Positions 15,231 through 36,075 of a stretch of DNA of 64,000 nucleotides are shown here, one piece after another. Within the stretch, counting starts at the first letter, position 1. Every line of letters starts with the position of its first letter. The position numbers and the translations under genes were made by a program. Where the stretch lies: positions 1 through 64,000 of the forward strand of contig JAKALM010000017.1 in the NCBI GenBank assembly GCA_021824145.1, in the 5' to 3' direction. The DNA comes from Bacteroidota bacterium. GTDB lineage: Bacteria; Bacteroidota; Ignavibacteria; Ignavibacteriales; Ignavibacteriaceae. The notes under the pieces are model-generated. The model was given only the letters and a program-made list of their open reading frames with translations, was not told the DNA's origin and made no database searches.

Positions 15231-16190
15231 GTGGATAAGCAAATTATGTTTGAAAAAGTATTACAAGCTCAAGAACGCTTAAAAGGTTTTTCAAAAATAA
15301 CTCCGGTTGTTGCCTCATCAACTCTGGATGAAATTGCAAAAGCCAAAGTTTTTTTGAAGTGCGAAAATTATCAAAGGATGGGTGCGTTTAAATTTCGCGG
15401 TGCGTTTAATGCAATGTCTCAATTAAGTGAAGAAGAAAAATTACTTGGTGTTATAACATATTCTTCTGGTAATCATGCGCAAGCAGTTGCACTAGTTGGA
15501 AAAATTTTAGAAATTAAAACCACAATCGTGATGCCTAAAAACGCACCCCAAATTAAGCTAAAAGCTACAGCAGGTTATGGCGCCAACATTATTGAATATA
15601 ATCCAGAATTGCAACAGCGTGAAGAAATTGCAAAAGAAATCCAAAATAAAAATGGATTTGTATTAATTCCGCCATTCGATCATCAAGAAGTTATTGCTGG
15701 GCAAGGTACTGCTGCATTAGAATTATTTCAAGATAAAAAAGAATTGGATTATCTTTTGGTTCCTTGCGGCGGCGGCGGATTGTTAAGTGGTTCGGCAATT
15801 GCAGCAAAAGGTATGTATCCAAATTGTAAAGTAATTGGAATTGAACCAGAAGTTGCAGATGATGCTACAAAGTCGTTTAAAACAAAAGTACTTCACTCGG
15901 TAAAAAATCCACCAACAATTGCAGATGGAACAAGAACAACTTCTCTAGGGAAATTAACTTTCCCTCTGGTGTTGGAATATGTAGATGATATGGTAACAGT
16001 TACTGAATATTCAATTATTGAAGCAGTTAAATTTTTATTTTATAGATTGAAACTTGTGGTTGAACCTTCGGGTGCATTGGGAATAGCAGCTTTATTAAGC
16101 GGTGCAGTTAAAGTAAATGGAAAAATAGGAGTTATAATTAGCGGCGGAAATATAGATGCAGAAACGATGACTTTTATTTTAAATTCTTAA
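15231..16190 (+). CDS. Threonine/serine dehydratase-like PLP enzyme
   Basis: A 319-residue fold-type II pyridoxal-phosphate enzyme. The PLP lysine lies in MGAFKFRGAFNAM, the substrate-binding SSGNHAQAVAL and the glycine-rich phosphate loop PCGGGGLLSG are all present, and the C-terminus GVIISGGNID is typical. It lacks the C-terminal ACT-like regulatory domain of biosynthetic IlvA, so it belongs to the short catabolic TdcB/serine racemase-like group that deaminates threonine to 2-oxobutyrate or serine to pyruvate. The start is GTG at 15231. It converges with the LuxC-like gene and the two stop codons overlap by 4 bases. Confidence 0.9.
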   Translation: MDKQIMFEKVLQAQERLKGFSKITPVVASSTLDEIAKAKVFLKCENYQRMGAFKFRGAFNAMSQLSEEEKLLGVITYSSGNHAQAVALVGKILEIKTTIVMPKNAPQIKLKATAGYGANIIEYNPELQQREEIAKEIQNKNGFVLIPPFDHQEVIAGQGTAALELFQDKKELDYLLVPCGGGGLLSGSAIAAKGMYPNCKVIGIEPEVADDATKSFKTKVLHSVKNPPTIADGTRTTSLGKLTFPLVLEYVDDMVTVTEYSIIEAVKFLFYRLKLVVEPSGALGIAALLSGAVKVNGKIGVIISGGNIDAETMTFILNS

Positions 16191-17428
16191 ATAATATTCA
16201 CTCTTTTACTTAATTCATTTAATAGTGAATAGCCATCCCAACTTGGTGAAAAATTTAGCGCCTGACCAATTGGTACTATTCTATCAATTCCAGCACCATT
16301 TACTATTTTTGCAAAATCTATTAACTCTTTTTTCTCAAATCCAAAATATGCGAGTGTTTGATCTTTTCTGCTGATAAGATTTGTAAGTGCATCTATATTT
16401 TCTAAATAGCATTCGAAGAAAAATCCGCCGCCGCAAGATTCTCTAAACTTATTAATTTCTTCTATTTCAACTTTTAAAACTGTTGGTTTATTATTATTTG
16501 TTGGAAATACAGCAGAAGCTTTTTCTGTCCTAGAAATTGATTCATACATATAGACAAGCTTTTCCATTGCAACATCTATTGAATCGCTTTTACTTCTTCG
16601 GTTTAATTCTCTTTCTAGCGATTTCCAAAATGCTTTACTTGCTTCTTCACATTCATTTTGGTTCCCAATAAACAGAACGAATCTTGGAGAAGAACACGCC
16701 ATTTGATCGAACCAATAAGCATCATTGTAAAATTGTGTTGCTTGTATGGCTTTCTTATCTTCAGACAAATTATTGTATGAAACCGCTTTTATTATTGAAT
16801 ATGAAAATTTGTCGGCAAAAGTAATATCTTTTGTCACCGGTTTTGAAGGTAAAATTTTAATTTGGCTGATGGTTTCATCACCGCCCCACAATATTCTTAT
16901 ATCTGAATGAAGTGAAATAAAACGATTGATCTTTTCATCTCGAGGATAAGTTACAATTAAGTTTCTTGAAAGGATTGGAGCAAATTTATCTTCTTTGAAA
17001 ATATCTCTAACAATTGAAAGCAATAGTTCAAGCTGTTGATTTACATCTTGAGTAACGCGCACAATATTAATGTTACCAATCAAAAGAGATAAAGCCCAAG
17101 AGTAAAGAAAAATGCTGTCAACATTCGATGGGGCAATGTGAAATGCAAATCCTCTTGGAACTATAATTTCATGTTCATTAATTTCTTTTTGAAAATTATT
17201 AATTATTGTGGTGATATTCGATTTACGAAGCCAATATGCTAAGGCAACAAGCTCCGGAAAGTTTTTTATTTCTTTTGATTCTAAAATATTTTTCGATAGG
17301 CTGGAAAGAAATTCAATATTTATATTATTAAAAGGAGAAAGAGGTTTTTGCGAAAAAAAATTATCATTTAGAAAATTTTCTAATTCGGACTTTAAATAAT
17401 ATTGAGGTGCAAAAATTGTTACTTCCAT
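16187..17428 (-). CDS. LuxC-family acyl-CoA/acyl-protein reductase (left arm)
   Basis: A 413-residue member of the LuxC fatty-acyl reductase family, which is distantly related to aldehyde dehydrogenases. The catalytic cysteine is Cys245 in DQMACSSPRF, matching the conserved C-[SN]-S-P signature. RGFAFHIAPSNVDSIF near residue 92 corresponds to the conserved region after the N-terminal domain, and the C-terminal VNGAGIDRIVPIGQAL motif is typical. In lux systems LuxC takes the acyl group from LuxE and reduces it with NADPH to an aldehyde. Here it follows the LuxE-like gene (3-base gap) in a minus-strand operon with an acyl ligase, dehydrogenase and carrier protein. No luciferase genes are present, so the aldehyde must serve another purpose. 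Confidence 0.88.
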   Translation of the reverse strand: MEVTIFAPQYYLKSELENFLNDNFFSQKPLSPFNNINIEFLSSLSKNILESKEIKNFPELVALAYWLRKSNITTIINNFQKEINEHEIIVPRGFAFHIAPSNVDSIFLYSWALSLLIGNINIVRVTQDVNQQLELLLSIVRDIFKEDKFAPILSRNLIVTYPRDEKINRFISLHSDIRILWGGDETISQIKILPSKPVTKDITFADKFSYSIIKAVSYNNLSEDKKAIQATQFYNDAYWFDQMACSSPRFVLFIGNQNECEEASKAFWKSLERELNRRSKSDSIDVAMEKLVYMYESISRTEKASAVFPTNNNKPTVLKVEIEEINKFRESCGGGFFFECYLENIDALTNLISRKDQTLAYFGFEKKELIDFAKIVNGAGIDRIVPIGQALNFSPSWDGYSLLNELSKRVNII

Positions 17429-17431
17429 ATT

Positions 17432-18532
17432 TTACCTTGATGTACTTAAAACAGACTCGGCATGTGTGTCGCTACAGCCGCGTAATTCTGCTTTTGGAAC
17501 TCTTCCTTCAACAAAAAAATAGGTGCCTTTTCTGCCGCACTTGCAGTTATCAATTCCTTTAATAGTTCCCAAATCTTCAGTTAATAAAGAATGTCCGGGA
17601 TAACTTTTTGGCAAAACACTAATTGTTTGGATGATGCCGCTCTTGCCAGCCGGAAGAACGCTCCAATCTTCAAAGCTTCTAATTAATATTTCTGCAAAAT
17701 TTGGTGTGTGAAGATATCCTTCTTCGCATTCCATAAAAATACTTCCGACTTGTTCAACCATTCCATAAAAATTATAAATTCTTTTCAAATTAAATTGGTT
17801 GAATAATTCTCTTTTAAAAACTTCGTTGGAAACTGCTTGTTCTTGAAGTTTTTTCCATCCGCCGCTATGAATTAAAATTGCTGAGTTTAAATCAATTTTT
17901 ACATTTGCATCTTTTAGCTTCTTGAAAAAATATTGCCAAACCATGAAGGTAAAACCAAAAATTAAAATTGATTCTGATCTATTTTTTTCAATATAGCTAA
18001 TTAAGTTTTCAGTTTTTAATTCCATGTTTTCATCAAGTGCGAAGAAATGGTTTCTTCCAAAATTAGATAAACCAACTAATCCGGCACCGCGCGCACTTAA
18101 AGATGATTTATTTTTTATTGTTGCATCAGTGTCGATAATTATCATTGGAAGGCGTTTGTTTCCGATATAAGAAGTAATAATCGAAGCTAAAGCTTTTACT
18201 TGAAGCATCGATGTTTCTTTATTCAAAACAATTTTTGAAACTTGCTGCCCAGAAGTTCCGCTTGAAGTTAAAACTTTAAGAATTTCATTGTCTGGAATGC
18301 TTTGTATTTTTTGGGATTTAAACAACCTTACAGGTAAATATGGAATATTTTCAATTTCCTTAAATTCCATTTCTGGATTTATATTAAGATTAGTCAAAAT
18401 ATTTCTGTAAGGTTGGCAATTTTTAAAATGAAATTTTGTTAAGTCCGATAATCCAGAAATAAGCAATGAACGTTTTTGGGAATTATCAATTGAGTATTCT
18501 GGCAGTTCAAATAATTCTTCAATTGCATTCAT
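17432..18532 (-). CDS. LuxE-like acyl-protein synthetase (left arm)
   Basis: A 366-residue ANL-superfamily enzyme of the LuxE acyl-protein synthetase family. The AMP-binding loop is LTSSGTSGQQVS near residue 88, and FYGMVEQVGSIF corresponds to the YGxTE-like A5 region. The C-terminal ELRGCSD motif contains Cys353, equivalent to the acyl-accepting cysteine of LuxE. The expected role is to activate a carboxylic acid as an acyl-AMP, acylate this cysteine and hand the acyl group to the LuxC partner encoded just downstream. Length matches LuxE. It overlaps the preceding AMP ligase gene by 14 bases. Confidence 0.88.
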   Translation of the reverse strand: MNAIEELFELPEYSIDNSQKRSLLISGLSDLTKFHFKNCQPYRNILTNLNINPEMEFKEIENIPYLPVRLFKSQKIQSIPDNEILKVLTSSGTSGQQVSKIVLNKETSMLQVKALASIITSYIGNKRLPMIIIDTDATIKNKSSLSARGAGLVGLSNFGRNHFFALDENMELKTENLISYIEKNRSESILIFGFTFMVWQYFFKKLKDANVKIDLNSAILIHSGGWKKLQEQAVSNEVFKRELFNQFNLKRIYNFYGMVEQVGSIFMECEEGYLHTPNFAEILIRSFEDWSVLPAGKSGIIQTISVLPKSYPGHSLLTEDLGTIKGIDNCKCGRKGTYFFVEGRVPKAELRGCSDTHAESVLSTSR

Positions 18533-19955
18533 TAAACTTCATCTCTTTTATTAAATTATAATCTTTCTTTCCTGAAGAAGTAACCGGAATTGAATCTACA
18601 CAGCGAACATCAACAACCGAATGATGAATTTTATAAATGTCAATAATCTTCTTTTTTGCAGCCTCTGAAATATGGTTTGAACGCTTTTGCAGAAGAACTT
18701 TTAGTGAGTCATCATTTCCATAACAAGCAGCTGGGCAGGAGAAATTGTTTTCTAACATTTTTTCAACTTCATCTAAATTTACTCTTAATCCAAAAAGCTT
18801 TATAAATCGTTTTAATCTACCGGTAATATAAATAAAACCATCGGTATCTTTATAAGCCAAGTCGCCAGTGTGAAGTTCTCCTTTTAGCAAATCGCCTTCA
18901 GATAGATCTTCTCTAGATTCAGCATAGCCCATCATAACATTATCGCCAAAATATACTAATTCACCTTGCTCATTCGGAGAAGAAATTTCTTCACTGTCTG
19001 AAAATATTTTTATTTTTCCGCCTGGAATCGGAATTCCAATTGACCCAATTTTATTACCAAGATTTTCAAATGGCACATAAGAAATTCTTGCTGTTGCTTC
19101 TGTTTGTCCATACATAACGAAGAATTTAATTTTTTTATTTATTGCAGCGTCATAAAAATATTTAATAAATTCTTCACTTAACCTTCCGCCAGCTTGTGTC
19201 ATAGTTTTTAATGTTGGCAAATCCATTTTATCAAATTTTAATCTTTGAAGCATTTGATAATTATAAGGTACGCCTGAAAATGAAGTGCATTTTTGCAAAT
19301 TGAAAGTACTCCAAAATTCTCTCATTACCATTGATTTATTGGAACAGAGAATTGTTGCGCCTTTTAACAAATGGCTGTTTATTACCGACAAACCAAAAGA
19401 ATAACTCATTGGCAAACTTGTAATTGGTTTTTCACTTTCAGTAATATTTAGATATTCTGAAATGGATTCTGCATTTGCCTGTATGTTCTTATAAGAAAGT
19501 TTTACAAGCTTTGGACTTCCAGTTGTTCCAGAAGTTGAAAGTAAAACAGCAAGATCTTTATGAACTGAAATATTGTTGGTGTTTTTTGTCTTATAAAAAT
19601 AAAATTTATTTTCCAAAAATATCTTTTCATAAGAAGTTAATTCAAAATTGATTTCTTCAACGCTGAAAATTATATCTGGCTGATAAATCGAAATGAGCCT
19701 CTTTTTCAGCTCAGAATCCATTTTGGAATTAGCAAGAAATATTGCATCACAAGAACGTAGTACAGATAAATAAAAGATGATGCTTTTAGCAGAATTATCG
19801 CAAAAAGAAAAAATTAATTTTTTTGAACTGAATTTGAGTTGATTAACAAGTTCATCTATCTTTTTATTCAATTCTAAATAAGAGTAAAAATCACCCGAAT
19901 CGTCGTCAATTAAAGCAATTTTATTTGGTTCAATATTTTCAAAATTCCAGAACAT
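18519..19955 (-). CDS. AMP-dependent acyl ligase (left arm)
   Basis: A 478-residue adenylate-forming enzyme (ANL superfamily). Motifs in order: phosphate loop STSGTTGSPKLV near residue 137, MYGQTEAT near 279, the hinge ITGRLKRFIKLFGLRV near 396, and the C-terminal catalytic lysine in TSSGKKDYN. It probably activates a fatty or other carboxylic acid and loads CoA or, given the operon, the carrier protein encoded two genes upstream. It sits between the SDR gene (1-base overlap) and the LuxE-like gene (14-base overlap), so translation is coupled. Acid specificity cannot be read from the sequence. Confidence 0.87.
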   Translation of the reverse strand: MFWNFENIEPNKIALIDDDSGDFYSYLELNKKIDELVNQLKFSSKKLIFSFCDNSAKSIIFYLSVLRSCDAIFLANSKMDSELKKRLISIYQPDIIFSVEEINFELTSYEKIFLENKFYFYKTKNTNNISVHKDLAVLLSTSGTTGSPKLVKLSYKNIQANAESISEYLNITESEKPITSLPMSYSFGLSVINSHLLKGATILCSNKSMVMREFWSTFNLQKCTSFSGVPYNYQMLQRLKFDKMDLPTLKTMTQAGGRLSEEFIKYFYDAAINKKIKFFVMYGQTEATARISYVPFENLGNKIGSIGIPIPGGKIKIFSDSEEISSPNEQGELVYFGDNVMMGYAESREDLSEGDLLKGELHTGDLAYKDTDGFIYITGRLKRFIKLFGLRVNLDEVEKMLENNFSCPAACYGNDDSLKVLLQKRSNHISEAAKKKIIDIYKIHHSVVDVRCVDSIPVTSSGKKDYNLIKEMKFNECN

Positions 19956-20713
19956 TACATTATCATTCCGCCATCAACACCTAAAACTTGACCAGTTATG
20001 TACTTGGACATATCTGAAGCAAAAAATAAAACTGCATTTGCAACATCTTCCGGTTGGCCAACTCTTTTCATTTTAATCGAGTTTAATCTTTCTTGATATT
20101 TTTCAGGTGAAAGAGATTTTATGAAATCTGTATTAATAAAACCAGGTGCAATTGCATTTACTCTAATATTCATTGGTGCAAGTTCGCGTGCAGCCGATAA
20201 AGTTATTCCAATAACTGCAGCTTTACTTCCGCCGTAAACAACTTGCCCTTCGTTTCCAACTTTACCAACAATTGAAGAAATATTTATAATTGAACCTGAT
20301 TTATTTCGCATCATCAATCTAGCAGCTAATTGCAAATTGTTTATTACTCCGGTTGTATTTGTGCTAAACGTATTTTGGATATCGTCTTTCTTAATCATTC
20401 CAACTAAATTATCTTCCATCATTCCAGCATTATTTACAAGTATATCCAATCTTTTATATTTCTTAAAAATGGTATTATAACAATTTTGTGTTGCTTCTAC
20501 ATCGCCAACGTCAAATAAAAATCCATCTACATCAATATTAAATTCTTTTTTTAATTCTTCTTTTCGTTGATCGAGCAGCTCTTGGCTGTGAACACCATTT
20601 AGAATTACAGTTGCTCCATATTTAGTAAGAAGCTTAGCTTCAGCCCAGCCTTGGCCTCTAGTAGAGCCTGTAATAAATGCAACTTTCCCTTCAAGATTAA
20701 AAATCGATGTCAT
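19955..20713 (-). CDS. Short-chain dehydrogenase/reductase, FabG-like (left arm)
   Basis: A 252-residue classical SDR. The NAD(P)-binding motif is TGSTRGQG near residue 16, followed by the NNAG motif, the catalytic serine in INISSIVG, the YGGSK tetrad segment (Y-x-x-x-K) and the C-terminal ITGQVLGVDGG typical of 3-oxoacyl-ACP reductases. It likely reduces a 3-oxoacyl thioester on the adjacent carrier protein, although reduction of another carbonyl in the pathway is possible. It overlaps the carrier-protein gene by 17 bases and the ligase gene by 1 base. Confidence 0.88.
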   Translation of the reverse strand: MTSIFNLEGKVAFITGSTRGQGWAEAKLLTKYGATVILNGVHSQELLDQRKEELKKEFNIDVDGFLFDVGDVEATQNCYNTIFKKYKRLDILVNNAGMMEDNLVGMIKKDDIQNTFSTNTTGVINNLQLAARLMMRNKSGSIINISSIVGKVGNEGQVVYGGSKAAVIGITLSAARELAPMNIRVNAIAPGFINTDFIKSLSPEKYQERLNSIKMKRVGQPEDVANAVLFFASDMSKYITGQVLGVDGGMIM

Positions 20714-20933
20714 ATTTATTTAATATCTCCTTGGCTTTTTTGAAGCTGCTCATATCAATTACGTCATCAGAATTGAGCATAATATCAAATTCTGTTTCAA
20801 TAGAAGCTACTAATGCTAGATGAGCAATGGAATCCCAAGTTTCATTTCCATAGCTTAATTCATCAGTTATTTTTTCATTCGATAATTCTAAAGCATCTGA
20901 AAATGCTTTCTTTAATTTATCAATATTATCCAT
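20697..20933 (-). CDS. Acyl carrier protein (left arm)
   Basis: A 78-residue acidic four-helix carrier protein. The phosphopantetheine attachment serine is in NETWDSIAHLALV (W-D-S-[IL] pattern), about residue 39. Tryptophan before DS and the low similarity to FabB/FabF-dedicated AcpP suggest a specialised carrier rather than the housekeeping ACP. It is the first enzyme-pathway gene of the left operon after the GNAT genes and overlaps the SDR gene by 17 bases. Confidence 0.88.
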   Translation of the reverse strand: MDNIDKLKKAFSDALELSNEKITDELSYGNETWDSIAHLALVASIETEFDIMLNSDDVIDMSSFKKAKEILNKYDIDF

Positions 20934-20971
20934 TAAGACTCCATTTAATAATAAAATTAAAATTAGTTTAA

Positions 20972-21694
20972 TTATAAGTTAAGAATTTTATTATGATCTA
21001 ACTCCATAAGTGTTTTCGAATTATAAGGAAAAAAATCTAAAACTGTGTTGTCTTCCGCAACCTTTGTTTCAATTTCAATAAATCCTAATTTTAAATGTGC
21101 ATAAAATGAAGTAAAATTATCTTTAAATAAAATTGTTTGTACTTTAGTAAAAGGGAAGCGTAATAAATTTCTTTTAATATTCTCCTTAATTAAAATTGAA
21201 AACATTCCTTGTTTACGAAATTTTTCTCTAATATAAACATGCTCAAGTTGAAAGGTTAGATTTTCTCTAGTTAATGTTAAAGCACTAATCAAATGAATGT
21301 TTTTATTCATTTTTTCAATTCTATCTTTACCAAGATATTGTGTTAACATAGATGTTTTAATCAAACCACTTGAAATACCATCACGATATTCGATCCATGA
21401 ACCAGATGCTCCAATGTACTCATCGTTCTGCTTTGCAATTAAATATCCAGATAAATCATATTCATAATCTCCAATATTTTCTTTCAAAATTTCTCGTAGG
21501 ATATTTTTGTATTCTTCTTCGTTTATTCCAAAAACTTTACAAGTACTTATTACTTGAGAACCGCTTTTTTCTGATTCAATTATTGCTTCAATTATAAAAT
21601 CAATATCATGATTTTGTGCAATGGAAAGAGTTACATTTTCAATAGGATTACCAGAAATTTTCGGTCCTTTTGATGACAATATTTCAGAATACAT
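20972..21694 (-). CDS. GNAT acyltransferase, paralogue 1
   Basis: A 240-residue GNAT-fold protein. The acyl-CoA pyrophosphate-binding loop is REKFRKQGMF (R-x-x-G-x pattern) near residue 162. The upstream half carries features shared by four paralogues in this window: IIESEKSG, an S.CK.F segment, LSGYLIAKQNDEYIGASGSWIE and a segment ending SGLIKTS. The C-terminal FFPYNSKTLMELD motif is also shared. The N-terminus is about 12 residues longer than in the other copies. It probably transfers an acyl group from CoA or carrier protein to an amine or hydroxyl; the acceptor is unknown. It lies 38 bases before the carrier-protein gene. Confidence 0.83.
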   Translation of the reverse strand: MYSEILSSKGPKISGNPIENVTLSIAQNHDIDFIIEAIIESEKSGSQVISTCKVFGINEEEYKNILREILKENIGDYEYDLSGYLIAKQNDEYIGASGSWIEYRDGISSGLIKTSMLTQYLGKDRIEKMNKNIHLISALTLTRENLTFQLEHVYIREKFRKQGMFSILIKENIKRNLLRFPFTKVQTILFKDNFTSFYAHLKLGFIEIETKVAEDNTVLDFFPYNSKTLMELDHNKILNL

Positions 21695-21735: not shown

Positions 21736-22416
21736 TTATTCAAATGTTGAAAATATTTCTTTATCAAGTTCCATTAGTACTTTAGTATCAAATGGGAAAA
21801 AATTTAAAACTTCTGGATCATCAACATGTTTTTCTTCAACTACTTTATATCCTATTTTCAAATGAGCATTGAAAGATTTGTAATTAGCTTTAAATAAAAC
21901 TCCTTGAACAGTTTCAAAGTCTTTATATTTTTTTCTGTTCCTTATAATATTTACTTTAATTAGACTTGAAAAAATTCCTTGTCTTCTATATTCTTCGCGA
22001 GTATAACCATGCTCCAATTGCAGTGTATAAGGTTTTCGGTTAACAGTTAAGCCTTTAATAACTTTGGTATTTTTACTTATATCCTTCATTTTTGATTTGT
22101 CGAGATAAGGAAATAAGAGCGTTGCTTTTATAATTCCGCTTGGAGTTTCATCAGCAGCTTCGTACCACGATCCTAAGGCACCAACATAATTCCCATTTTT
22201 TTCAGCAATTAGAAAACCGGACAGATAATAATCATAATTTGGGACATTTTGTTTTAATACTTCAGTCAAAATATCTTTAAATTTTTCTTCACTTAATGCA
22301 AACAACTTGCATGAACTTACAACATTAGAACTACTTTTTTCTGATTCAATTATTGTTTCAATAACAAAATCTATATCATCATAAGTTGCTTCTCTAATAA
22401 TTAATTTTTCTAACAT
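21736..22416 (-). CDS. GNAT acyltransferase, paralogue 2
   Basis: A 226-residue GNAT-fold protein, tandem paralogue of its two neighbours and of the copy at 32284-32970. Shared landmarks are IIESEKSSSN, SSCKLFALSEE, the strand YDYYLSGFLIAEKNGNYVGA, the acyl-CoA loop REEYRRQGIF near residue 147 and the C-terminal FFPFDTKVLMELD. Differences concentrate in the segment WYEAADETPS and the stretch around residues 100-125, which may be the acceptor-binding side. It is 41 bases upstream of paralogue 1 and in the same direction. Activity as an N- or O-acyltransferase is inferred from the fold only. Confidence 0.83.
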   Translation of the reverse strand: MLEKLIIREATYDDIDFVIETIIESEKSSSNVVSSCKLFALSEEKFKDILTEVLKQNVPNYDYYLSGFLIAEKNGNYVGALGSWYEAADETPSGIIKATLLFPYLDKSKMKDISKNTKVIKGLTVNRKPYTLQLEHGYTREEYRRQGIFSSLIKVNIIRNRKKYKDFETVQGVLFKANYKSFNAHLKIGYKVVEEKHVDDPEVLNFFPFDTKVLMELDKEIFSTFE

Positions 22417-22505: not shown

Positions 22506-23183
22506 TTAATTAAGCAAAAATATTTTATCTTCGCTAAATTCCATTAGAACTTTCGTATCATAAGGGAAATATTTTAATATTATAGGGTCATCAACTCTTT
22601 TTTCTTCAGCAACGGAATATCCTACTTTTAAATTTGCATTATATGATTTATAATTTTGTTTAAATAAAATGACTTGAGATAATGAAAATGAATTTTTATC
22701 AAAATTTCTTCTTATGTTTTCTTTTACAAGCCGTGTAAAAATGCCTTGGCGTCTGTATTTTTCTCGAACGTAACCATGTTCTAATTGAAGACTTCCATTT
22801 TTTCTTGCGAATGTTAAGTTTTTAATGATTTGAGAATTTTTATTTATTTCTTTCATTTTAGTTTTATCTAAATAGGGAAATAAAACAGTTGCTTTGATTA
22901 ATCCGCTTGGAGTGCCATCAACATTTTCTATCCAGGAACCTGATGCCCCAATATATTCACCATTTGATTCGGCAATTAAGAACCCGGATAAATAATAGTC
23001 ATAATTTTCAATATCCTGGTTGAGTACATCTTTGAGAATCTCCTTAAATCTAATTTCGGGTAAATTAAAAATATTGCATGAACTTACCATGTTAGAAGTC
23101 CCTTTTTCTGATTCTATAATTGCTTCAATTACGAAATCAATATCATTAGCAGTTGCCTGCCTAATATTTAAATCTTCAATCAT
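22506..23183 (-). CDS. GNAT acyltransferase, paralogue 3
   Basis: A 225-residue GNAT-fold protein, the first gene of the left minus-strand arm. It shares IIESEKGTSN, SSCNIFNLPE, the strand YDYYLSGFLIAESNGEYIGA, SWIENVDGTPSGLIKA, the acyl-CoA loop REKYRRQGIF near residue 145 and YFPYDTKVLME with its paralogues. The ATG at 23183 is chosen because MIEDLNIRQATANDID then lines up with the N-termini of the other copies and is preceded by GGAGA; an in-frame TTG at 23195 is less likely. The acceptor is unknown. Confidence 0.83.
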   Translation of the reverse strand: MIEDLNIRQATANDIDFVIEAIIESEKGTSNMVSSCNIFNLPEIRFKEILKDVLNQDIENYDYYLSGFLIAESNGEYIGASGSWIENVDGTPSGLIKATVLFPYLDKTKMKEINKNSQIIKNLTFARKNGSLQLEHGYVREKYRRQGIFTRLVKENIRRNFDKNSFSLSQVILFKQNYKSYNANLKVGYSVAEEKRVDDPIILKYFPYDTKVLMEFSEDKIFLLN

Positions 23184-23727: not shown

Positions 23728-23772
23728 TATTATTTTTTAAACCTTTTTCGATAAACAAAATAAATTTTACAA

Positions 23773-28816: not shown

Positions 28817-30144
28817 AAGTTTATAATCTTTTTTCTAATGGTAAATTATATTGCAATGATGAAGAATATTTATCAAATTCTCCTCAAACAATTTCGCTTA
28901 AAGAAATATCCGAAAGAGTAAAAGTTGGCCAGGGCTATTTACGAAAAATTTCAATCGACGATATTATTACTTGTGTTGATTCAGTTCTTGAAGATTGGAG
29001 TGCAAGAGATGGTGAAATACAAAAACAGTTAGCACCACATGGATTAAATTTTTTGATTTATTGGTTTCGTGCATCTCACCTTAGACAAATAAGTGATAAC
29101 TCTCTTTTAGGAAATAGAAAAGTTGTTGATGATTTTTGTTTTATTCCTTCGAACAACTACGAAGCAATGGCAAATCCAAGAGGAATAATTGCGCATTGGC
29201 TTTCCGGAAATGTTCCGATGTTGGGAATGCTTTCTCTTATTCAAGGCATTTTAACTAAAAATGCAAACATATTAAAAGTATCCAAGGAACATTATCATTT
29301 TATACCACTGCTGTTAAATTCATTTAATAAAGTTGTTGTAAAAAATAAATCCGGAAACGAAATACTCGGTTCAGAAATAATAAAATCTGTTGCAGCAATT
29401 TATTTTGAAAGAGATGATATGGAAGCACAAAATCAGCTTTCGCAAATTGCAGATGTAAGAGTAGCTTGGGGCAATATGGAAGCGGTTGAAACAATAATGA
29501 ATTTGCCAAAACACTACGGGACAATTGATGTAATTTTTGGCCCGAGAACTTCTTTTATGGTTGTGGGCAAAGAATTTTTACAAAACGAAAAAGATGCTGA
29601 ACAGATTGCAAAGAAAGCAGCTTTGGATGGTTCTCTATTTGAACAAAGAGGATGTAATTCACCGCATACAGTTTTTGTTGAAGATGGGAATCCTGTTACA
29701 CCATTACAATTTGCCGAATTGCTTTCAATAGAGATGGAAAAATTGGAAAAGAAAATTCCTAAACAACCAATAGCTTCCGCAGATTCATTAAAGATTTTAA
29801 AATATCGAGCAGAGTACGATATTAAAGGTGAAGCATTTTATTCAAAAGGAACAGAATGGTCAGTTTTATATTCTGAAGATGACAAAGGCTTAGCTGTACC
29901 GTGCTATAACAGAACTTTATTTGTTCGTCCGGTTAAAGATATTTTAGAAGTTGCTGAATATTGTAATCATCACACTCAATCTGCCGGCGCAGCTTTATCT
30001 CCTGAAAGAAAAAAAATTTTTGCTAAAGCTGTAACTTCAAAAGGTGTTGATCGAGTACCAGAAATTGGAAATATGACACTTTACGAAATTCCTTGGGATG
30101 GAATGTTCTTAATGCATCAGTTTGTAAGATGGTGTAGATTATAA
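28813..30144 (+). CDS. LuxC-family acyl-CoA/acyl-protein reductase (right arm)
   Basis: A 443-residue LuxC-family reductase with the catalytic cysteine Cys281 in EQRGCNSPHTVFVE. Other landmarks are NPRGIIAHWLSGNVPMLG near residue 121 (the conserved region that binds the cofactor/acyl group in the family), RVAWGNMEAV and the terminal KGVDRVPEIGNM. It is a closer match to canonical LuxC than the left-arm copy, which is 30 residues shorter. Together with the LuxE-like protein it should release an aldehyde from an activated acyl group. It is the penultimate gene of the right operon. Confidence 0.9.
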   Translation: MKVYNLFSNGKLYCNDEEYLSNSPQTISLKEISERVKVGQGYLRKISIDDIITCVDSVLEDWSARDGEIQKQLAPHGLNFLIYWFRASHLRQISDNSLLGNRKVVDDFCFIPSNNYEAMANPRGIIAHWLSGNVPMLGMLSLIQGILTKNANILKVSKEHYHFIPLLLNSFNKVVVKNKSGNEILGSEIIKSVAAIYFERDDMEAQNQLSQIADVRVAWGNMEAVETIMNLPKHYGTIDVIFGPRTSFMVVGKEFLQNEKDAEQIAKKAALDGSLFEQRGCNSPHTVFVEDGNPVTPLQFAELLSIEMEKLEKKIPKQPIASADSLKILKYRAEYDIKGEAFYSKGTEWSVLYSEDDKGLAVPCYNRTLFVRPVKDILEVAEYCNHHTQSAGAALSPERKKIFAKAVTSKGVDRVPEIGNMTLYEIPWDGMFLMHQFVRWCRL

Positions 30145-30183
30145 CAAAAAATATTTTATTAATAAATTTATTTCTATAGAATT

Positions 30184-30930
30184 ATGATTACCACTGATGA
30201 ATTTGAATCAAAAAGATTTATCATTACTGGCGCCAGTTCCGGAATTGGACGGAAAATTGCTATTGATTTAGCTGCTAAAGGAAGTTCAGTTCTTGCTCTA
30301 GGAAGGAACCAAGATAAACTTCAATCTCTTAAAATTTTATATCCTGAAAAAATAGAAATTGAAGCGTTTGATATATTGGACTTTTCACAGTTAAAATTAG
30401 TAGTTGAAAAATTTTCTGAAAAAGCAAAACTTGATGGATGTGTTCATGCTGCTGGAATAAATAAATTTACTCCATTGCGTGCTTTAAATTGGAACGTTTT
30501 TGAAAAAATTATGAAGACAAATTTATATTCAGGAATTGAATTGATAAGACTGTGTGCATCAAATAAAATTTCAAATTCAGGAAGTTCAATTGTTATGATT
30601 TCATCTGTAGCTGGAATAAAAGGAGAGATGGGATTTACAGCTTATGCTTCTTCAAAAGGAGCTTTAATTAGCGCAGTAAAATGTTTGGCCTTGGAATTGA
30701 GTAATAGTAAAATTAGAGTTAACTCTATTTCGCCAGGTGTTGTAGAAACTGAATTAACAAAATCAATGGAAAGTTTTTATCCAGATGGAATTGAATCTGT
30801 TGTTAAAAAACATCCTGGCGGAATTGGTAATGTTGATGATATTTCAAATTTAGTTCAATTTCTGTTGAGCAATAAAAGCAGATGGATTACCGGTTCAAAC
30901 TATATAATTGATGGAGGGTATACAATTTAA
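30184..30930 (+). CDS. Short-chain dehydrogenase/reductase (right arm)
   Basis: A 248-residue classical SDR. It has TGASSGIGRKIAI (cofactor motif), HAAGINKFTP in place of the usual NNAG, the catalytic serine in MISSVAG, YASSK (Y-x-x-x-K) and the C-terminal ITGSNYIIDGGYT. The likely substrate is a 3-oxoacyl or other keto intermediate of the pathway. It lies 39 bases after the LuxC-like gene and converges, with a 14-base gap, with the SGNH hydrolase gene, so it closes the right operon. Confidence 0.86.
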   Translation: MITTDEFESKRFIITGASSGIGRKIAIDLAAKGSSVLALGRNQDKLQSLKILYPEKIEIEAFDILDFSQLKLVVEKFSEKAKLDGCVHAAGINKFTPLRALNWNVFEKIMKTNLYSGIELIRLCASNKISNSGSSIVMISSVAGIKGEMGFTAYASSKGALISAVKCLALELSNSKIRVNSISPGVVETELTKSMESFYPDGIESVVKKHPGGIGNVDDISNLVQFLLSNKSRWITGSNYIIDGGYTI

Positions 30931-30944
30931 TTAAACTAAAATTT

Positions 30945-32216
30945 TTATTTTGAATTATTATAAGCATCAATTAATACTTTAGCTAACATTTGTCCAATTT
31001 CTGCAGAACCAAGTTCAGAAGGATGTGCATAATCTAATACCGCTAAAGGTGGGGTAGCATTAACCCATTTAACCATTGAACCATATCCACCCATTGCTTC
31101 AAAGAAATTCCAAAAGGCTATTCCAGTTTTCGAAACAATGTCTTGTTGAATTTTTAATAATTGTGGAACCCGTGGATCAGTGATAAAACTTGTACCTTTT
31201 TTAATACTTTTGTCTGCAACCCCCATTAGTAAAATACTAGCTTGCGGGAAATCTTTTTTTAAATTTTCAATTACTTTTATCATTTGGTTTTCATACCATT
31301 TATCAGAATTTGAGTTATAGGTACCTTGATAAATGCCAAAAGTTAAAATCAATAGTTTGTAGTTTAAGAAACTGTCGAATTGTTTAATGTTAGATTCAGA
31401 AATATTTTGAAATCCAAGTCCTGTATTCATCGGCCAAGCAAAATTATCAACATAAATTCCATTACCATTTTCTAAGCTGACTCCATAAAAATATGCTTGA
31501 TCAGGTTGTGTAGTTGAAATTTTAATTGAATTTGAAACCCCCGATGGGGCATAAAGTTTTAGTTCATGTATTTCATTACCCGTTAAAAGATTCGAATTTT
31601 GTTTCACGCCATCATTAAATGAATATATAATACTTGAATTCTTTGCATTGCTATAATATAATTTTACGCAACTGAAATTATTTAAATATCCGTGCCAACC
31701 AGTTGCAACATATTTTACCCAACTAATACCTTGAGGAATGTATACATAACCACTTATTCCAAGCGGAATATTATTTGGATTATTACTTAAAACTGATAAT
31801 GATTTCCAATTATCTGAAAAGGATTGTCTTGTTGTAGTTCTGAACATAATATCAGGAGAAGTAATAGACATAAAACCAACCGCGCTGCCTCCAAATTTTT
31901 TTTGCAGATCTTCTCTTAAACTTGATGTTATCATATCTCCTTCTAATCCCGAATCGCCAAAATGAGCTATTCGTACTGCATGGCCTTTTGTCTGTTTAAG
32001 AGCATCAAAAAAATATTTCATTTGAGAAAGATTTCCTGTTAATTTAATTTCTTTAATTATTGGCACTTCTTGCTTAGGTAGTGATGTGCATTCTAAATTA
32101 ATTTTGTGGCCAATTCTTGAAATCACTTTGCTTGCTATAAGATTAGTAGTTATTATTACCAGACTAATAGTTAATACGATTATAAAAAAATAATTATGAT
32201 TTTTTTCCTTTTGCAA
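30945..32216 (-). CDS. Membrane-anchored SGNH/GDSL-like hydrolase
   Basis: A 423-residue protein with an N-terminal membrane anchor (about residues 9-28) and an SGNH-hydrolase-like domain outside the cytoplasm. The first block is HFGDSGLEGDMI with the nucleophile serine, LLILTFGIYQGTYNS may be the Asn/Gly block, and DYAHPSELG carries the D-x-x-H pair. Such enzymes are esterases or, in AlgX/PatB-like relatives, O-acetyltransferases or acetylesterases acting on exopolymers. In this cluster it may add or remove an acyl decoration at the cell surface. It is transcribed leftwards, downstream of a GNAT gene. Confidence 0.75.
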   Translation of the reverse strand: MQKEKNHNYFFIIVLTISLVIITTNLIASKVISRIGHKINLECTSLPKQEVPIIKEIKLTGNLSQMKYFFDALKQTKGHAVRIAHFGDSGLEGDMITSSLREDLQKKFGGSAVGFMSITSPDIMFRTTTRQSFSDNWKSLSVLSNNPNNIPLGISGYVYIPQGISWVKYVATGWHGYLNNFSCVKLYYSNAKNSSIIYSFNDGVKQNSNLLTGNEIHELKLYAPSGVSNSIKISTTQPDQAYFYGVSLENGNGIYVDNFAWPMNTGLGFQNISESNIKQFDSFLNYKLLILTFGIYQGTYNSNSDKWYENQMIKVIENLKKDFPQASILLMGVADKSIKKGTSFITDPRVPQLLKIQQDIVSKTGIAFWNFFEAMGGYGSMVKWVNATPPLAVLDYAHPSELGSAEIGQMLAKVLIDAYNNSK

Positions 32217-32283
32217 TTTGAATTATTTCCTTTTTTTTTGAATTAAACTGTTACTAAATAACTATTAAAATTTAATTCTGGAT

Positions 32284-32970
32284 TTAAAAATTATAAATTT
32301 CGTTCATCCTTTTTTTATCCATTTCAAGTAGAACTTTTTCTGTATATGGAAAAATCTTTTTTATTTCTTCTTTATCCGAAAATTTTATTTCAGCAATTTT
32401 AAATCCTAACTTTTCTGCAGCATTTACTGATTTAAAATTCTTCTGAAAACATATACCCTGTGTTTTGGGGATTGATTTATTATTATTGTAATGTTTTTTT
32501 ATACTTTCAGTCATTAATCTTGTATAAATTCCTTTTCGTCTATATTCTTCTTTTACATAACCATATTCAAATTGAATTGCTCCTACTTCTCTTTTAAAAC
32601 TTACTTCTTTTGTAATTTTAAAATTTGAAAGGACCTCCTGGATTTTTTCTCTTTTTAAATAATTAAGTAAAATATTACTATAGAGAATATAGCTTGAAAC
32701 TCCTACAGCCCCTTCAACCCACGATCCTAAAGCTCCAACTTGAACTCCGTTAATTTCAGCAATTAAGAAACCGGAAAGGCTGTATTCCTGACCTTCTATA
32801 TTTTCTTCCAAAATATTTTTTAAAATACTTTTGTATTCTTCTTCAGAGATGTTTAAAATATTACAAGCGCTAATTACTGAAGTTCCACCCTTGTCGGCTT
32901 CAATAATTGTTTCGATAATAAAATCAATATCTTGAAATGCTGCTTGTCGGATTAAAAGATTTTCTATCAT
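32284..32970 (-). CDS. GNAT acyltransferase, paralogue 4
   Basis: A 228-residue GNAT-fold protein clearly related to the three tandem copies at 20972-23183: MIENLLIRQAAFQDIDFIIETIIEA is the matching N-terminus (given only as a landmark for the first residues), followed by ISACNILNISEEEY, YSLSGFLIAEINGVQVGALGSW, the acyl-CoA loop KEEYRRKGIY near residue 150 and IFPYTEKVLLEMD. It lies 12 kb away, next to the two DltA-like adenylation genes (3-base gap). One copy per sub-cluster suggests each pairs with a different donor or acceptor. Confidence 0.83.
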   Translation of the reverse strand: MIENLLIRQAAFQDIDFIIETIIEADKGGTSVISACNILNISEEEYKSILKNILEENIEGQEYSLSGFLIAEINGVQVGALGSWVEGAVGVSSYILYSNILLNYLKREKIQEVLSNFKITKEVSFKREVGAIQFEYGYVKEEYRRKGIYTRLMTESIKKHYNNNKSIPKTQGICFQKNFKSVNAAEKLGFKIAEIKFSDKEEIKKIFPYTEKVLLEMDKKRMNEIYNF

Positions 32971-32973
32971 ATT

Positions 32974-34485
32974 TTACTTCTCTTCATTTGCTGCAATTTT
33001 TATTAAAGATTTTCTATCAACTTTTCCATTAGAATTTAATGGAAGCTCTGATATAGATGTTATTTTATATGGAATCATATAATGAGGAATTTTACTTCCC
33101 AAATATTGTGTTATTTCATTTAGATTGCCAGAATAATTTTGAATAAACACATAAATCAAATTATTTCCAGGACTTTTTTCAACTGGAACTGCATAAACAT
33201 TCGGTACTTTTGTAAAAATACTTATATGATGTTCAATCTCACCTAGTTCATTTCGGAATCCTTGTACCTTTATCTGATTATCTTTTCTTCCACAGTACAT
33301 AAAATCACCATCTTCGTCAACAAATGAAATATCGCCTGTTCTGTAAAATCTTTTTGAAATTGAATTTTCATTTATTACAAAAAACGATTCTTTATTTTTC
33401 CCTGGATTATTTATATATCCTTCAGTCAGTTGTTTTCCTGATAGGCACAATTCGTTCTTGCTGTTGTCTAAAATAATTCTATTTCCTTCGTCAATTATTT
33501 TTGCTTCCATATTGTGAATTGGTTTTCCAATACAAACTGTGCCGTTATAATTTTTAATTTTTGATTTATCTTTGGGAAGAGAATAAGAGAGACAAAATAT
33601 TGTTGCTTCTGTTGGGCCATAAACATTTTGAACTTCTGCATTTGGGACGCAACTCAACCACTCTTTAGCAAGTTCCAAATTCAATGCTTCACCGCAGAAT
33701 AGAGAGTACCTCATGCTATTTAGTTTAATTTCGTTAAAATATGGTTGCAAATAGCTGAGGATTGATGGAACCATTAATGCGAATGTTATTTTATCTTCTT
33801 CCAGTGTGCAATATATTGAAGAAAATTTTATTCCATTTTCAGGAATTGTGTAAACGCAGGCGCCAACACATAATGGAATAAAGTAACACATTATTGAAAG
33901 ATCAAAAGTCATTTCAAACATCTGCAGAAATCTATCCTTAAAATCTATTTTATAATCTAAATTAAAAAAAGAATTAACAAATGAGTTAAGATTTTTATAA
34001 GATAGCTTTACTCCTTTTGGTACGCCAGTGCTGCCAGACGTAAACAAAACATAAGCGAAATTATTTTCGTCAATTACGGGAACTTCTAAATTAATTTTAG
34101 TTACAGGTAAGTTTTTAGAGTTGACAATTTTTATTTTTTCTTCGTTAGCTAGTTCTCGATAATTTCTGTTATCTGCACTATCTAAAATTATTTTTAATCC
34201 AGATTGTTTTATAATAGAAATATTTCTTTCCAATGGGTGAGAAGGATTTATTGGAACAAATCCTTTGCCCGCATACAAAATTCCAAAAACCGAACAATAA
34301 CTCTCAAAGTCATCATTAGTCATAATCCCAATTAATTTTTCTGAATCGTCTATATCATTTTCCAGAAAAAATCTTATTTTCGACACTGTTTTTGCAAATT
34401 CTAAATATGTATAGAATTTATTATTAATATGGAAAGCATTCCTATTTAAATAGCTGAGTACACTATCTCTAATTTTAGTTAGCAT
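32974..34485 (-). CDS. Stand-alone amino-acid-type adenylation enzyme (DltA/NRPS A-like), copy 1
   Basis: A 503-residue adenylation enzyme of the DltA/NRPS A-domain type, without a fused carrier or condensation domain. Motifs: FTSGSTGVPKGVKLSYKN (A3), NVYGPTEATIF (A5), YRTGD (A7), CGRKDNQIKVQGFRNELGEIE (split here: CGRKDNQIKVQ then GFRNELGEIE, A8) and LNSNGKVDRKSL with the A10 lysine. It should activate an amino acid or similar small acid and load it on a carrier protein in trans. It is a tandem paralogue of 34558-36075. The specificity pocket was not decoded. Confidence 0.87.
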   Translation of the reverse strand: MLTKIRDSVLSYLNRNAFHINNKFYTYLEFAKTVSKIRFFLENDIDDSEKLIGIMTNDDFESYCSVFGILYAGKGFVPINPSHPLERNISIIKQSGLKIILDSADNRNYRELANEEKIKIVNSKNLPVTKINLEVPVIDENNFAYVLFTSGSTGVPKGVKLSYKNLNSFVNSFFNLDYKIDFKDRFLQMFEMTFDLSIMCYFIPLCVGACVYTIPENGIKFSSIYCTLEEDKITFALMVPSILSYLQPYFNEIKLNSMRYSLFCGEALNLELAKEWLSCVPNAEVQNVYGPTEATIFCLSYSLPKDKSKIKNYNGTVCIGKPIHNMEAKIIDEGNRIILDNSKNELCLSGKQLTEGYINNPGKNKESFFVINENSISKRFYRTGDISFVDEDGDFMYCGRKDNQIKVQGFRNELGEIEHHISIFTKVPNVYAVPVEKSPGNNLIYVFIQNYSGNLNEITQYLGSKIPHYMIPYKITSISELPLNSNGKVDRKSLIKIAANEEK

Positions 34486-34557
34486 ACTATTATCCTTTTT
34501 ACTTAGCCTTAATTTTATAAGGCAGAAGCGGCAATAAATTTATTTAAAAAAATATTA

Positions 34558-36075
34558 TTATAATTCTTTACCCATCGATATTAATTTTTTCCGATCGATT
34601 TTACCATTTTCATTTAAAGGGAAAGATGGAATAATTGAAATATATGATGGTACCATATATTCAGGTATTTTTAATTTCAAATGTTCTTCTATTTCAAGCG
34701 AAGTTCCATTATAATTTTCCACAAATAAATGAATCTGCATATTCCCAAATGAGTTTTGATAACCTACTGCCGCAACATTTCCACCTTTAATAAATTCTCT
34801 TGCAAAATGTTCAATCTCTCCCAATTCAATTCTAAATCCTTGAATTTTAATTTGATTATCTATTCTTCCTGCAAAAAAGAAATCCCCATCTTCATCTTGA
34901 AAAGCTAAATCACCTGTTCTATAAAATATTTCTTCCTCACCATTTAATATTGTTCTAAAAAAAGTTTTTGAGTTTTTGTCGTCATTATTCCAATAGCCTG
35001 GCGTTAGCTGTTTACCAGATAGACAAAGTTCGCCTTTTTCTGTCGATTTATTTGTAATTATTTTAGAATTTTCATCAACAATTATAGCCCCCATATTTTC
35101 CATTGGTTTCCCAATACAAACTCCGCCATTAAAAGTTTTTATTGGCGAGTTCTCGCTATTCCATTCATAAACTAAACAGAATACGGTTGCTTCAGTTGGG
35201 CCATAAGCATTAATAATTTTTGCATTTGGTGTGCATTTAGACCATCCTTGTGCAATTTGATCTAACAAAGTCTCACCACAAAAAAGTGAATATCTCATTT
35301 TTTCTAATTTAATTTCATCAAAGTAAGGAGTAAGATATGATAATACAGAAGGAACCATGCATGCAAATGTAATTTCATTTTCTTCTAATGCCATATAAAC
35401 ATTTGCAAACTTTACACCTTCGGCAGGTAATGTATAAATACATGCGCCAACACATAGCGGAACTGTATAACAAACTACTGAAAAGTCGAATGTCAATTCA
35501 AACATTTGTAAAAATCTATCGTTTTCGTTTACATTATAACCAAGCCTTAAAAACGCATCAACAAATGAATTTAGATTCTTTCTAGTAATCGGAACGCCTT
35601 TCGGAATGCCAGTACTTCCTGAAGTAAATAATAAATAAGCAATTTCATTTTCATCAACAATAGGAGGCTGCAAATTTATTTTTGCAGTTGGTAATTCATC
35701 TACAGAAACAATTTTAACATTATTAGTCGAAGCAATTTCAGTAATTAAATCATCCTTCTTTTTACAAAAAATAGTTTTGATACCTGTTTGTTCAAGTATT
35801 GATGAATTGCGACTAAGCGGATTAGCTGGATTAATTGGAACATATCCTCGTCCTGAAAATAAGCATCCATAAATTGCAGCATAAGTTTCTATTTCTGGAG
35901 ATTGCTTTGCAATTATTCCAACTAATTTTTCAGAACCACTACAATTAATTTCAATGTAATTTCTAATTTTAGATACTAATTGAGCAAATTGTTCATAAGA
36001 ATAATAGACTCCATTAATATAAAAAGCATTTCGGTTAGCGAATTTAATGTATGATTGGTGAATCTTTTCTAGCAC
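34558..36075 (-). CDS. Stand-alone amino-acid-type adenylation enzyme (DltA/NRPS A-like), copy 2
   Basis: A 505-residue paralogue of the downstream copy. Motifs: FTSGSTGIPKGVPITRKN (A3), NAYGPTEATVF (A5), YRTGDLAF (A7), AGRIDNQIKIQGFRIELGE (A8) and LNENGKIDRKKL (A10 lysine). All catalytic motifs are intact. It starts the minus-strand unit copy 2, copy 1, GNAT 4, SGNH hydrolase. Carrier proteins are not encoded in this unit, so those at 20697, 23500 or 24839 are the likely partners. DltA-type activity towards D-alanine is only one possibility, since DltB-like membrane acyltransferases are absent here. Confidence 0.87.
   Translation of the reverse strand: MLEKIHQSYIKFANRNAFYINGVYYSYEQFAQLVSKIRNYIEINCSGSEKLVGIIAKQSPEIETYAAIYGCLFSGRGYVPINPANPLSRNSSILEQTGIKTIFCKKKDDLITEIASTNNVKIVSVDELPTAKINLQPPIVDENEIAYLLFTSGSTGIPKGVPITRKNLNSFVDAFLRLGYNVNENDRFLQMFELTFDFSVVCYTVPLCVGACIYTLPAEGVKFANVYMALEENEITFACMVPSVLSYLTPYFDEIKLEKMRYSLFCGETLLDQIAQGWSKCTPNAKIINAYGPTEATVFCLVYEWNSENSPIKTFNGGVCIGKPMENMGAIIVDENSKIITNKSTEKGELCLSGKQLTPGYWNNDDKNSKTFFRTILNGEEEIFYRTGDLAFQDEDGDFFFAGRIDNQIKIQGFRIELGEIEHFAREFIKGGNVAAVGYQNSFGNMQIHLFVENYNGTSLEIEEHLKLKIPEYMVPSYISIIPSFPLNENGKIDRKKLISMGKEL

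Follow-up and report, generated by a model that had tools for sequence, protein, structure and literature searches.

An operon with LuxE and LuxC genes, interrupted by a second LuxE-LuxC cassette, and its possible link to carrier-fed surface O-acylation in Ignavibacteriales

What do two LuxC-LuxE pairs do in a bacterium in which no luciferase is found? The question is raised by positions 16187-36075 of a 64,000-nucleotide stretch from a Bacteroidota bacterium of the order Ignavibacteriales (positions 1 to 64,000 of contig JAKALM010000017.1, assembly GCA_021824145.1; hereafter, the window). There, 20 open reading frames (ORFs) encode both pairs together with carrier proteins, GNAT-family proteins and DltA-like adenylation enzymes. 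The original prediction described a single cluster with two divergent arms. We found instead that the minus-strand arm (arm 1), the two DltA-like genes at the right-hand end and the GNAT gene beside them (GNAT d) form one minus-strand operon, and that the plus-strand arm (arm 2), together with a gene for an SGNH protein, is a ~9-kb insertion into that operon. We lean, by a little, toward reading the operon as a modular acyl-supply system for a surface O-acylation trio (SGNH protein, acyl carrier protein [ACP] and MBOAT), interrupted by a second supply cassette.

Relatives revealed the interruption. Of the four minus-strand genes on the right, the two DltA-like genes and the GNAT gene belong to the arm-1 operon as its upstream end. 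In G263, a genome of the same family (G, C and L handles denote genomes, contigs and loci), a contiguous minus-strand operon has two DltA-like genes alternating with two GNAT genes, followed by genes for ACP, a short-chain dehydrogenase/reductase (SDR), ligase, LuxE and LuxC; its proteins are 36-65% identical to those of the window. LuxC, LuxE, ligase, SDR, ACP, GNAT and DltA-like genes share a single strand in G263, G444, G409, G411 and G414, and an ACP-GNAT-DltA-like run with no other called ORF inside it was present in the stretches fetched from G263, G406, G409, G411, G412, G414, G416 and G444. G414, which belongs to the window's genus, has the same flanking genes on both sides and no insert. 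Comparison of the window with the G414 locus (L166) by blastn gave 78% identity over 12137-21609, continuing through the GNAT array to 23333; alignment resumed at 32855-37622 with 76%. Positions 23334-32484 had no G414 match, and 32485-32931 had only GNAT-type matches. Between the aligned flanks lie ~9.5 kb in the window versus ~1 kb in G414, the latter holding a fourth GNAT. Since the G414 flanks align and the interior is missing there, we conclude that arm 2 and the SGNH gene were inserted. The copies in the GNAT tandem array do not correspond strictly one to one between the window and G414. GNAT d may itself have come with the insert, as it is 48% identical to the G414 copy versus 78, 75 and 68% to copies in G413, G405 and G454. 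A repeat search found no repeats framing the insert, only short, AT-rich matches; a transposon-like insertion was set aside, as no terminal repeats were obvious. The features of the region, with identities to proteins of the named genomes, are as follows.

16187-17428, minus strand: LuxC-type acyl thioester reductase of arm 1 (Cys245); PF05893, 1.7e-31; 56% to G263, 80% to G414.
17432-18532, minus strand: LuxE-type acyl-protein synthetase of arm 1 (Cys353); PF04443, 4.2e-58.
18519-19955, minus strand: AMP-forming acyl ligase of arm 1; PF00501, 1.9e-42.
19955-20713, minus strand: FabG-like SDR of arm 1; PF13561, 2.7e-60; YxxxK motif.
20697-20933, minus strand: ACP of arm 1; PF00550, 1.8e-4; WDSI motif; 60-85% to family relatives.
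20972-21694, minus strand: GNAT c; 50% to GNAT b.
21736-22416, minus strand: GNAT b; 65% to GNAT a.
22506-23195, minus strand: GNAT a, first operon gene left of the insertion; GNAT-fold model, pLDDT 90.
23334-32480 (approximate edges): the insertion, absent from this site in G414, with its right edge in or next to GNAT d.
23488-23727, plus strand: ACP1 of arm 2; PF00550, 4.4e-5; WDSL motif.
23773-24828, plus strand: ketoacyl-ACP synthase III (KAS III, FabH-like); PF08541/PF08545; triad Cys119-His265-Asn295; 78% to G408.
24839-25072, plus strand: ACP2 of arm 2; PF00550, 6.4e-5; 75% to G408.
25056-26540, plus strand: AMP-forming acyl ligase of arm 2; PF00501, 7.6e-70; 69% to G408.
26556-27692, plus strand: iron-containing alcohol dehydrogenase (Fe-ADH); PF00465, 6.6e-35; 60% to G408.
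27692-28816, plus strand: LuxE-type acyl-protein synthetase of arm 2 (Cys361); PF04443, 1e-86; 74% to G408.
28813-30144, plus strand: LuxC-type reductase of arm 2 (Cys281); PF05893, 3.5e-77; solved relative 7xc6, E 1.7e-17.
30184-30930, plus strand: SDR of arm 2; PF13561, 7.2e-49; 58% to a paralogue beside the trio at G000:C36 (G000 being the window genome); 70-78% in G405, G413 and G454.
30945-32216, minus strand: Ape1-like SGNH protein, a diverged copy; profile match to 4k3u, 5.7e-25; Foldseek 2.8e-23; Tyr at the block-III Asn position; different N-terminus.
32284-32970, minus strand: GNAT d; PF00583, 2.9e-5; relatives 78% in G413, 75% in G405, 68% in G454; 48% to the G414 copy at this place.
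32974-34485, minus strand: adenylation enzyme 2, of DltA or nonribosomal peptide synthetase (NRPS) type; TIGR01733, 6.9e-89, below cut-off.
34558-36075, minus strand: DltA/NRPS-type adenylation enzyme 1, first operon gene; TIGR01733, 2.2e-93, below cut-off; best DltA structure 2.9e-54.

All 20 ORFs were confirmed in the window's ORF list, and Pfam calls agreed with the labels, so that the predicted inventory stood: two LuxC and two LuxE proteins with catalytic cysteines, three carriers, four GNATs, two DltA-like enzymes, KAS III, Fe-ADH and an SGNH protein. The prediction that luciferase is missing also held. In the 3.48 Mb genome (95% complete), PF00296 had 0 matches, while a control matched in 10 of 14 genomes; bioluminescence was rejected as a function. 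No LuxC or LuxE match other than the two pairs described was found in the genome (E 0.001). Their scores do not reach the NCBIfam equivalog types (29 and 94 bits against a cut-off of 750 for LuxC; 85 and 125 against 550 for LuxE). The cysteines (Cys281 and Cys361 in arm 2, aligned with Cys245 and Cys353 in arm 1) are conserved without exception across alignments of 6 and 7 sequences. A recent duplication between the arms was rejected: arm-versus-arm identity is 35% for LuxE, 25% for LuxC and 29% for SDR, and the two LuxEs fall in different parts of a LuxE tree of 87 rows. In that tree, G414 and G263 are the neighbors of arm-1 LuxE (SH-aLRT 100), and Deinococcus, Ponticoccus, G029 and L140 join them with a support of 84. 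Arm 1 falls in a mostly unfused clade and arm 2 near fused LuxE-LuxC proteins (supports 84-100 and 93); the tree was made by a quick method with long branches flagged, and two fused rows are on the arm-1 side.

All three carriers (PP-binding) have the DS[LI] serine motif, and a carrier-activating phosphopantetheinyl transferase is encoded in the genome. The four GNATs are 41-65% identical to one another, with weak Pfam matches or none. A model of one of them had the GNAT fold (mean pLDDT 90); its structural matches were to generic GNATs only, and the substrate could not be read from the fold. We found no plasmid relatives of GNAT a. DltA models matched the DltA-like enzymes at 257-287 bits, against cut-offs of 476 and 560, and the A domain of LgrA ranked first among PDB matches of adenylation enzyme 1, ahead of DltA. 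Prediction of A-domain specificity from pocket residues was dropped, the relevant stretch apparently not being diagnostic between DltA and LgrA.

Do the two arms belong together? We surveyed 164 genomes of the order, some incomplete; counts within one family are not independent. LuxE was present in 11 of them (E 1e-30). The arm-1 type occurs in 10, including the window genome (the G416 copy was typed as arm 1), and the arm-2 type occurs alone in G408, a genome of the window's genus. Both types are therefore found together only in the window genome (1/164), as expected if the arms are neighbors only because a cassette landed by chance in a functionally unrelated operon. Separate loci with no joint occurrence in other genomes would speak against the original single cluster, and for the LuxE genes this is what the survey showed. 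This explanation also draws on the uninterrupted site in G414 and on G408, where a 6-kb contig encodes KAS III, ACP2, ligase, Fe-ADH and LuxE (60-78% identical) in the order of arm 2 as far as the contig reaches, which does not include LuxC; no GNAT was found in this genome (79% complete). Thus, arm 2 is a self-contained unit. However, arm-2-type KAS III, detected in 5 of the 164 genomes (E 1e-80), leads to a different picture: in G413 and G454, relatives of KAS III, SDR and ACP1 adjoin genes for FkbH, GNAT, DltA-like enzymes and the trio, which qualifies the separation of the arms seen for LuxE. In addition, the closest relatives of GNAT d are in G413, G405 and G454, an SGNH gene of the trio family is part of the insert, and terminal repeats were not obvious in the repeat search. 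We consider two unrelated loci very improbable.

FkbH makes glyceroyl-ACP. Since its gene lies with those for KAS III, SDR and ACP1 in G413 and G454, this arrangement suggests that a starter can be supplied either by FkbH or by the ligase-FeADH-LuxE-LuxC set. One G413 locus (L165, G413:C71) contains the trio and the FkbH/KAS III set; a second operon there, with LuxC matched at 40% and no LuxE found, may be a decayed cassette or an assembly artefact. Two small ORFs (99 and 162 amino acids, no Pfam match) at 6452-7220 of L173 recur near FkbH/KAS III in L165 and L176.

What could the operon supply? The GNAT family, sought with a GNAT alignment, was present in 19 of the 164 genomes, all in the window genome's family, and in all 10 LuxE genomes other than G408. 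In these 19 genomes, a fetched stretch with a GNAT gene also encoded DltA-like enzymes in 17, the arm-1 ACP and SDR in 12, an MBOAT in 8 and FkbH in 3; these are lower bounds, many contigs being short. In G410 and G444, the trio directly adjoins the LuxC end of the operon. The SGNH protein of the window is 61% identical to a copy at G000:C36, which is followed by an ACP and then an MBOAT. It has no Pfam family match, and its profile matched Neisseria Ape1 (4k3u; 5.7e-25). Its model resembles Ape1 structures (Foldseek 2.8e-23; TM 0.82 by target and 0.69 by query length; next kind of protein, 3e-9), and Asp88-Ser89 and Asp395-His398 are invariant in 15 sequences. For the trio MBOAT, DltB proteins were the only solved relatives found (TIGR04091, 190 bits against a cut-off of 375). 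A C-terminal hexapeptide with a tyrosine (FxYxxF-like) is present in 38 of 38 MBOATs, with V as its first residue in G000, G410 and G413 and P in two outgroups and G184.

The ligase sets the GNAT genomes apart. The SGNH family occurs in 78 of 395 genomes of the phylum, and we examined part of these loci together with the GNAT stretches. In GNAT genomes, 12 of 12 MBOATs (ten stretches, ten genomes) come after SGNH-ACP, the ligase being absent. Among the order's genomes that lack GNAT, 13 of 14 MBOAT loci examined read SGNH-ligase-ACP-MBOAT (9/10 in family f2; 4/4 in f1, the family of the GNAT genomes). From f2, 12 of 24 genomes were examined at one locus each: 9 had SGNH-ligase-ACP-MBOAT, 1 had SGNH-MBOAT and 2 had no MBOAT; seven loci in 5 of 6 GNAT-free f1 genomes gave 4 with SGNH-ligase-ACP-MBOAT and 3 without MBOAT. 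Outside the order, where 12 of 44 genomes were covered, no ligase or carrier was called at any of the 12 MBOAT-SGNH loci, and a carrier profile, for which its own training set was the only control, found nothing at E 1 in these loci. Thus, the order holds a carrier-containing SGNH-ACP-MBOAT set, Ape1-like and DltB-like, which is new as far as our searches of open-licence papers reach. Because the trio lacks a ligase where the operon is present and has one elsewhere in the order, our best reading is that the operon has taken over the ligase's task, supplying hydroxyacyl- or aminoacyl-ACP for surface O-acylation. That the ligase pattern tracks the GNAT operon strengthens the reading of the operon as an acyl supplier.

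Two further loci touch on these families. Three 11-kb stretches (L210, L212, L216) contain an Ape1-like SGNH gene and no MBOAT, and the family may therefore have a second use. In the window genome, G000:C4 (L072, 7897-17907) encodes a second DltB-like MBOAT near an AMP-ligase homologue, with ORFs that by eye resemble asparagine synthase and a carrier; it is apparently another acylation locus.

How might the parts work together? The data show the operon, the insertion, the link to the trio, the ligase pattern and the fold and motif assignments, whereas all substrates, the order of steps and the acceptor are our inference. LuxE would activate one carboxylate of a short acid, possibly a diacid, on its cysteine, and LuxC would reduce it to an aldehyde. 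The aldehyde could then be converted to an alcohol by Fe-ADH (in the insert) or the SDR (in the operon). The AMP ligase would place the resulting hydroxy-acid on a carrier, with a single extension possible through KAS III and SDR. The DltA-like enzymes would charge a carrier with an amino acid; the GNATs would couple acyl groups to amines, in the simplest case by N-acylation of aminoacyl-ACP. The charged carrier would serve the trio at G000:C36, whose DltB-like MBOAT could take the group onto its own C-terminal tyrosine, and the Ape1-like SGNH protein would hand it to an envelope glycan, perhaps peptidoglycan. The original prediction had the aldehyde as the released product. In each arm, however, LuxE and LuxC are accompanied by a reductase and a ligase-ACP pair, and it is more economical to read the aldehyde as an intermediate. 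The broader expectation of carrier-bound acyl chemistry without light, with surface decoration as the likely end, was supported.

Peptidoglycan could be the acceptor, given the Ape1 fold and the murein-type flanking genes; this is the weakest step of the model. At 36419-38850 of the window, genes for an NlpC/P60 endopeptidase and an MR_MLE protein diverge from the operon, and one or both lie beside the operon in several relatives. The MR_MLE protein is closest to models of N-acetyl-D-Glu racemase and dipeptide epimerase, below their cut-offs. Farther along the window, at 56001-60000, G+C rises to 0.41 from ~0.30 before.

Several observations count against a supply system for surface O-acylation. 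The trio of the window genome lies on a different contig, and its physical linkage comes from relatives. The block-III Asn, nearly invariant in the family, is Tyr in the SGNH protein of the window; its paralogue at G000:C36 has retained Asn. No MBOAT lies near the SGNH copies at 3 of 7 f1 loci, 2 of 12 f2 loci, in the window and in G405. Ape1 removes acetyl groups, according to PMC12148441, and the SGNH protein could thus be an esterase. The family-level counts come from genomes that are not independent. Finally, LuxE loci elsewhere offer points of the same kind: 27 of 80 have none of nine glycan-type neighbors (some of these loci are short), in a Clostridium group LuxE-LuxC comes with HpaB-type and sigma-54 genes, plasmid loci of Ponticoccus and Pantoea have no annotated glycosyltransferase and that of Nonomuraea is unannotated, and the glycan genes that do lie near LuxE are largely of the cytoplasmic sugar-nucleotide type, which favors N-acylation of a sugar before export.

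These loci came from a scan of genome contigs that gave at least 548 stretches encoding a LuxE relative, of which 80 loci were kept; neighbors were clustered, and one representative per cluster was scanned. LuxE was called on the expected strand in 77 of 80, and LuxE and LuxC were fused into one ORF at 30. Nearby genes encoded LuxC (73 loci), ligase (71), ACP (49), SDR (37), Fe-ADH (19) and KAS III (12); one locus, from a Lachnospiraceae bacterium (L075), has all seven arm-2 functions. At least one of the nine glycan-type neighbors was present in 53 of 80 loci. Recurrent neighbors included DegT aminotransferase (27), hexapeptide acyltransferase (18), NeuB (14) and sugar transferase (Bac_transf, 13). 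A split transketolase pair in 26 and malate/lactate dehydrogenase in 12 of the 80 loci (L074-L153) hint at the acids made. In the Clostridium locus L117, LuxE-LuxC lies with HpaB-like, NifU-like and sigma-54 activator genes, unlike glycan synthesis; L126, L133, L135, L139 and L148 were grouped with L117, the only one scanned, by cluster size and layout. Six of the 62 plasmid records that matched LuxE were opened, and the loci of Deinococcus and two Rhizobium plasmids contain glycosyltransferases. Cassettes of this kind have been reported from the flagellin-glycan regions of Aeromonas, Enterobacteriaceae and Dickeya (PMC7874193, PMC4875605, PMC7575072), with a liposugar suggested in the first two. 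Non-luminous LuxE-LuxC cassettes are thus widespread, often among glycan genes, and already known.

The chief rival explanation arises here: the GNATs might attach a carrier-borne hydroxyacyl group to an amino sugar nucleotide in the cytoplasm, as at flagellin-glycan and O-antigen loci, with the MBOAT trio a separate matter. The arm-1 gene set is that of the Aeromonas group II cassette (PMC7874193). The order ACP-SDR-ligase-LuxE-LuxC is common to arm 1, to G029, where a similar cassette (36-51%) lies among FdtA, DegT and sugar-transferase genes, and to the Deinococcus plasmid polysaccharide locus; the DegT, NeuB and Bac_transf counts above point the same way. However, a Pfam scan of the 20 ORFs revealed no sugar or glycosyltransferase family, the GNAT genes are tied to DltA-like genes (17/19) and often to the trio (8/19), the trio ligase is missing where the operon is present, and no role is left for the DltA-like enzymes. 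We regard sugar N-acylation as unlikely, while taking it seriously.

Might the genes instead form a stand-alone NRPS-like pathway to a secreted small molecule, such as an N-acyl amino acid, aldehyde or alcohol, with the GNATs as condensing enzymes? The adenylation enzymes are close to NRPS A domains, KAS III, carriers and reductases are present, and a thioesterase cluster recurs in 10 of the 80 LuxE loci. Against this, the Pfam scan of the 20 ORFs found no transporter, thioesterase or regulator family, relatives link these genes to a trio for envelope O-acylation, and genes of murein type run divergently at the flank. We judge such a pathway improbable.

Returning to acyl supply for surface O-acylation, we tentatively propose a broader scenario, in which we place less confidence. 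The order may have turned an acyl-CoA-fed MBOAT/SGNH machine into a carrier-fed one while keeping the fused tyrosine shuttle, and part of one family may have swapped the ligase for exchangeable supply cassettes (LuxE-LuxC, FkbH, DltA-like plus GNAT), giving N-hydroxyacyl-aminoacyl or hydroxyacyl esters of the envelope, perhaps of peptidoglycan. LuxE-LuxC genes without luciferase are common; the surprise is the link of these cassettes and DltA-like enzymes to a carrier-containing MBOAT/SGNH trio. The order breaks a carrier-free rule that the examined outgroups fit and so offers a natural series for testing a change of MBOAT donor, as well as a possible source of unusual envelope acyl groups. 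Searches of open-licence papers returned no published description of this system and no paper linking FkbH with flagellin or MBOAT/SGNH/DltA with Bacteroidetes.

How does the system compare with known ones? It differs from a lux bioluminescence operon in the absence of a detectable luciferase in the genome and in LuxC and LuxE scores below the equivalog cut-offs. The original prediction knew of no pathway with this gene set; we found likenesses for both arms. In arm 2, ACP2-ligase-FeADH-LuxE-LuxC has the same order as ACP-ligase-FeADH-fused LuxE-LuxC in Vibrio fortis (L085). We take the O-antigen tetronate genes of V. cholerae O1, whose product is 3-deoxy-tetronate on perosamine, to have this order too. 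Compared with such Vibrio genes, arm 2 has separate LuxE and LuxC and adds KAS III, an extra ACP and an SDR. The V. cholerae O1 genes VC0248-VC0252 are named as tetronate genes in PMC3441752; no roles for the individual genes were found. For arm 1, the group II cassette of the Aeromonas polar-flagellin glycosylation island has the same five genes (ACP, 3-oxoacyl-ACP reductase, AMP synthetase, luxE and luxC; PMC7874193). That cassette sits with pse genes and glycosyltransferases, whereas arm 1 sits with GNAT and DltA-like genes and has no sugar genes among the 20 ORFs.

The Dlt D-alanylation system (DltA, DltC, DltB, DltD and DltX) is resembled in parts, by the DltA-like adenylation enzymes of the operon and by the carrier and DltB-like MBOAT of the trio, with the adenylation enzymes and the MBOAT scoring below the Dlt model cut-offs. 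Unlike in Dlt, the SGNH protein is Ape1-like rather than DltD, and the shuttle hexapeptide is fused to the MBOAT. We know of no Dlt counterpart of LuxE-LuxC or the GNATs. Peptidoglycan O-acetylation by PatA/PatB/Ape1 likewise combines an MBOAT carrying a C-terminal hexapeptide with an SGNH protein of Ape1 fold, whereas here a dedicated ACP lies between SGNH and MBOAT: an ACP adjoins the MBOAT at 12 of 12 loci in GNAT genomes and 13 of 14 other loci of the order, contrary to the Pat type. MBOAT/SGNH pathways other than Dlt are, according to PMC12148441, acyl-CoA-fed, without such a carrier and with a C-terminal hexapeptide. Because hexapeptide and carrier are both present, the trio departs from the rule as given there.

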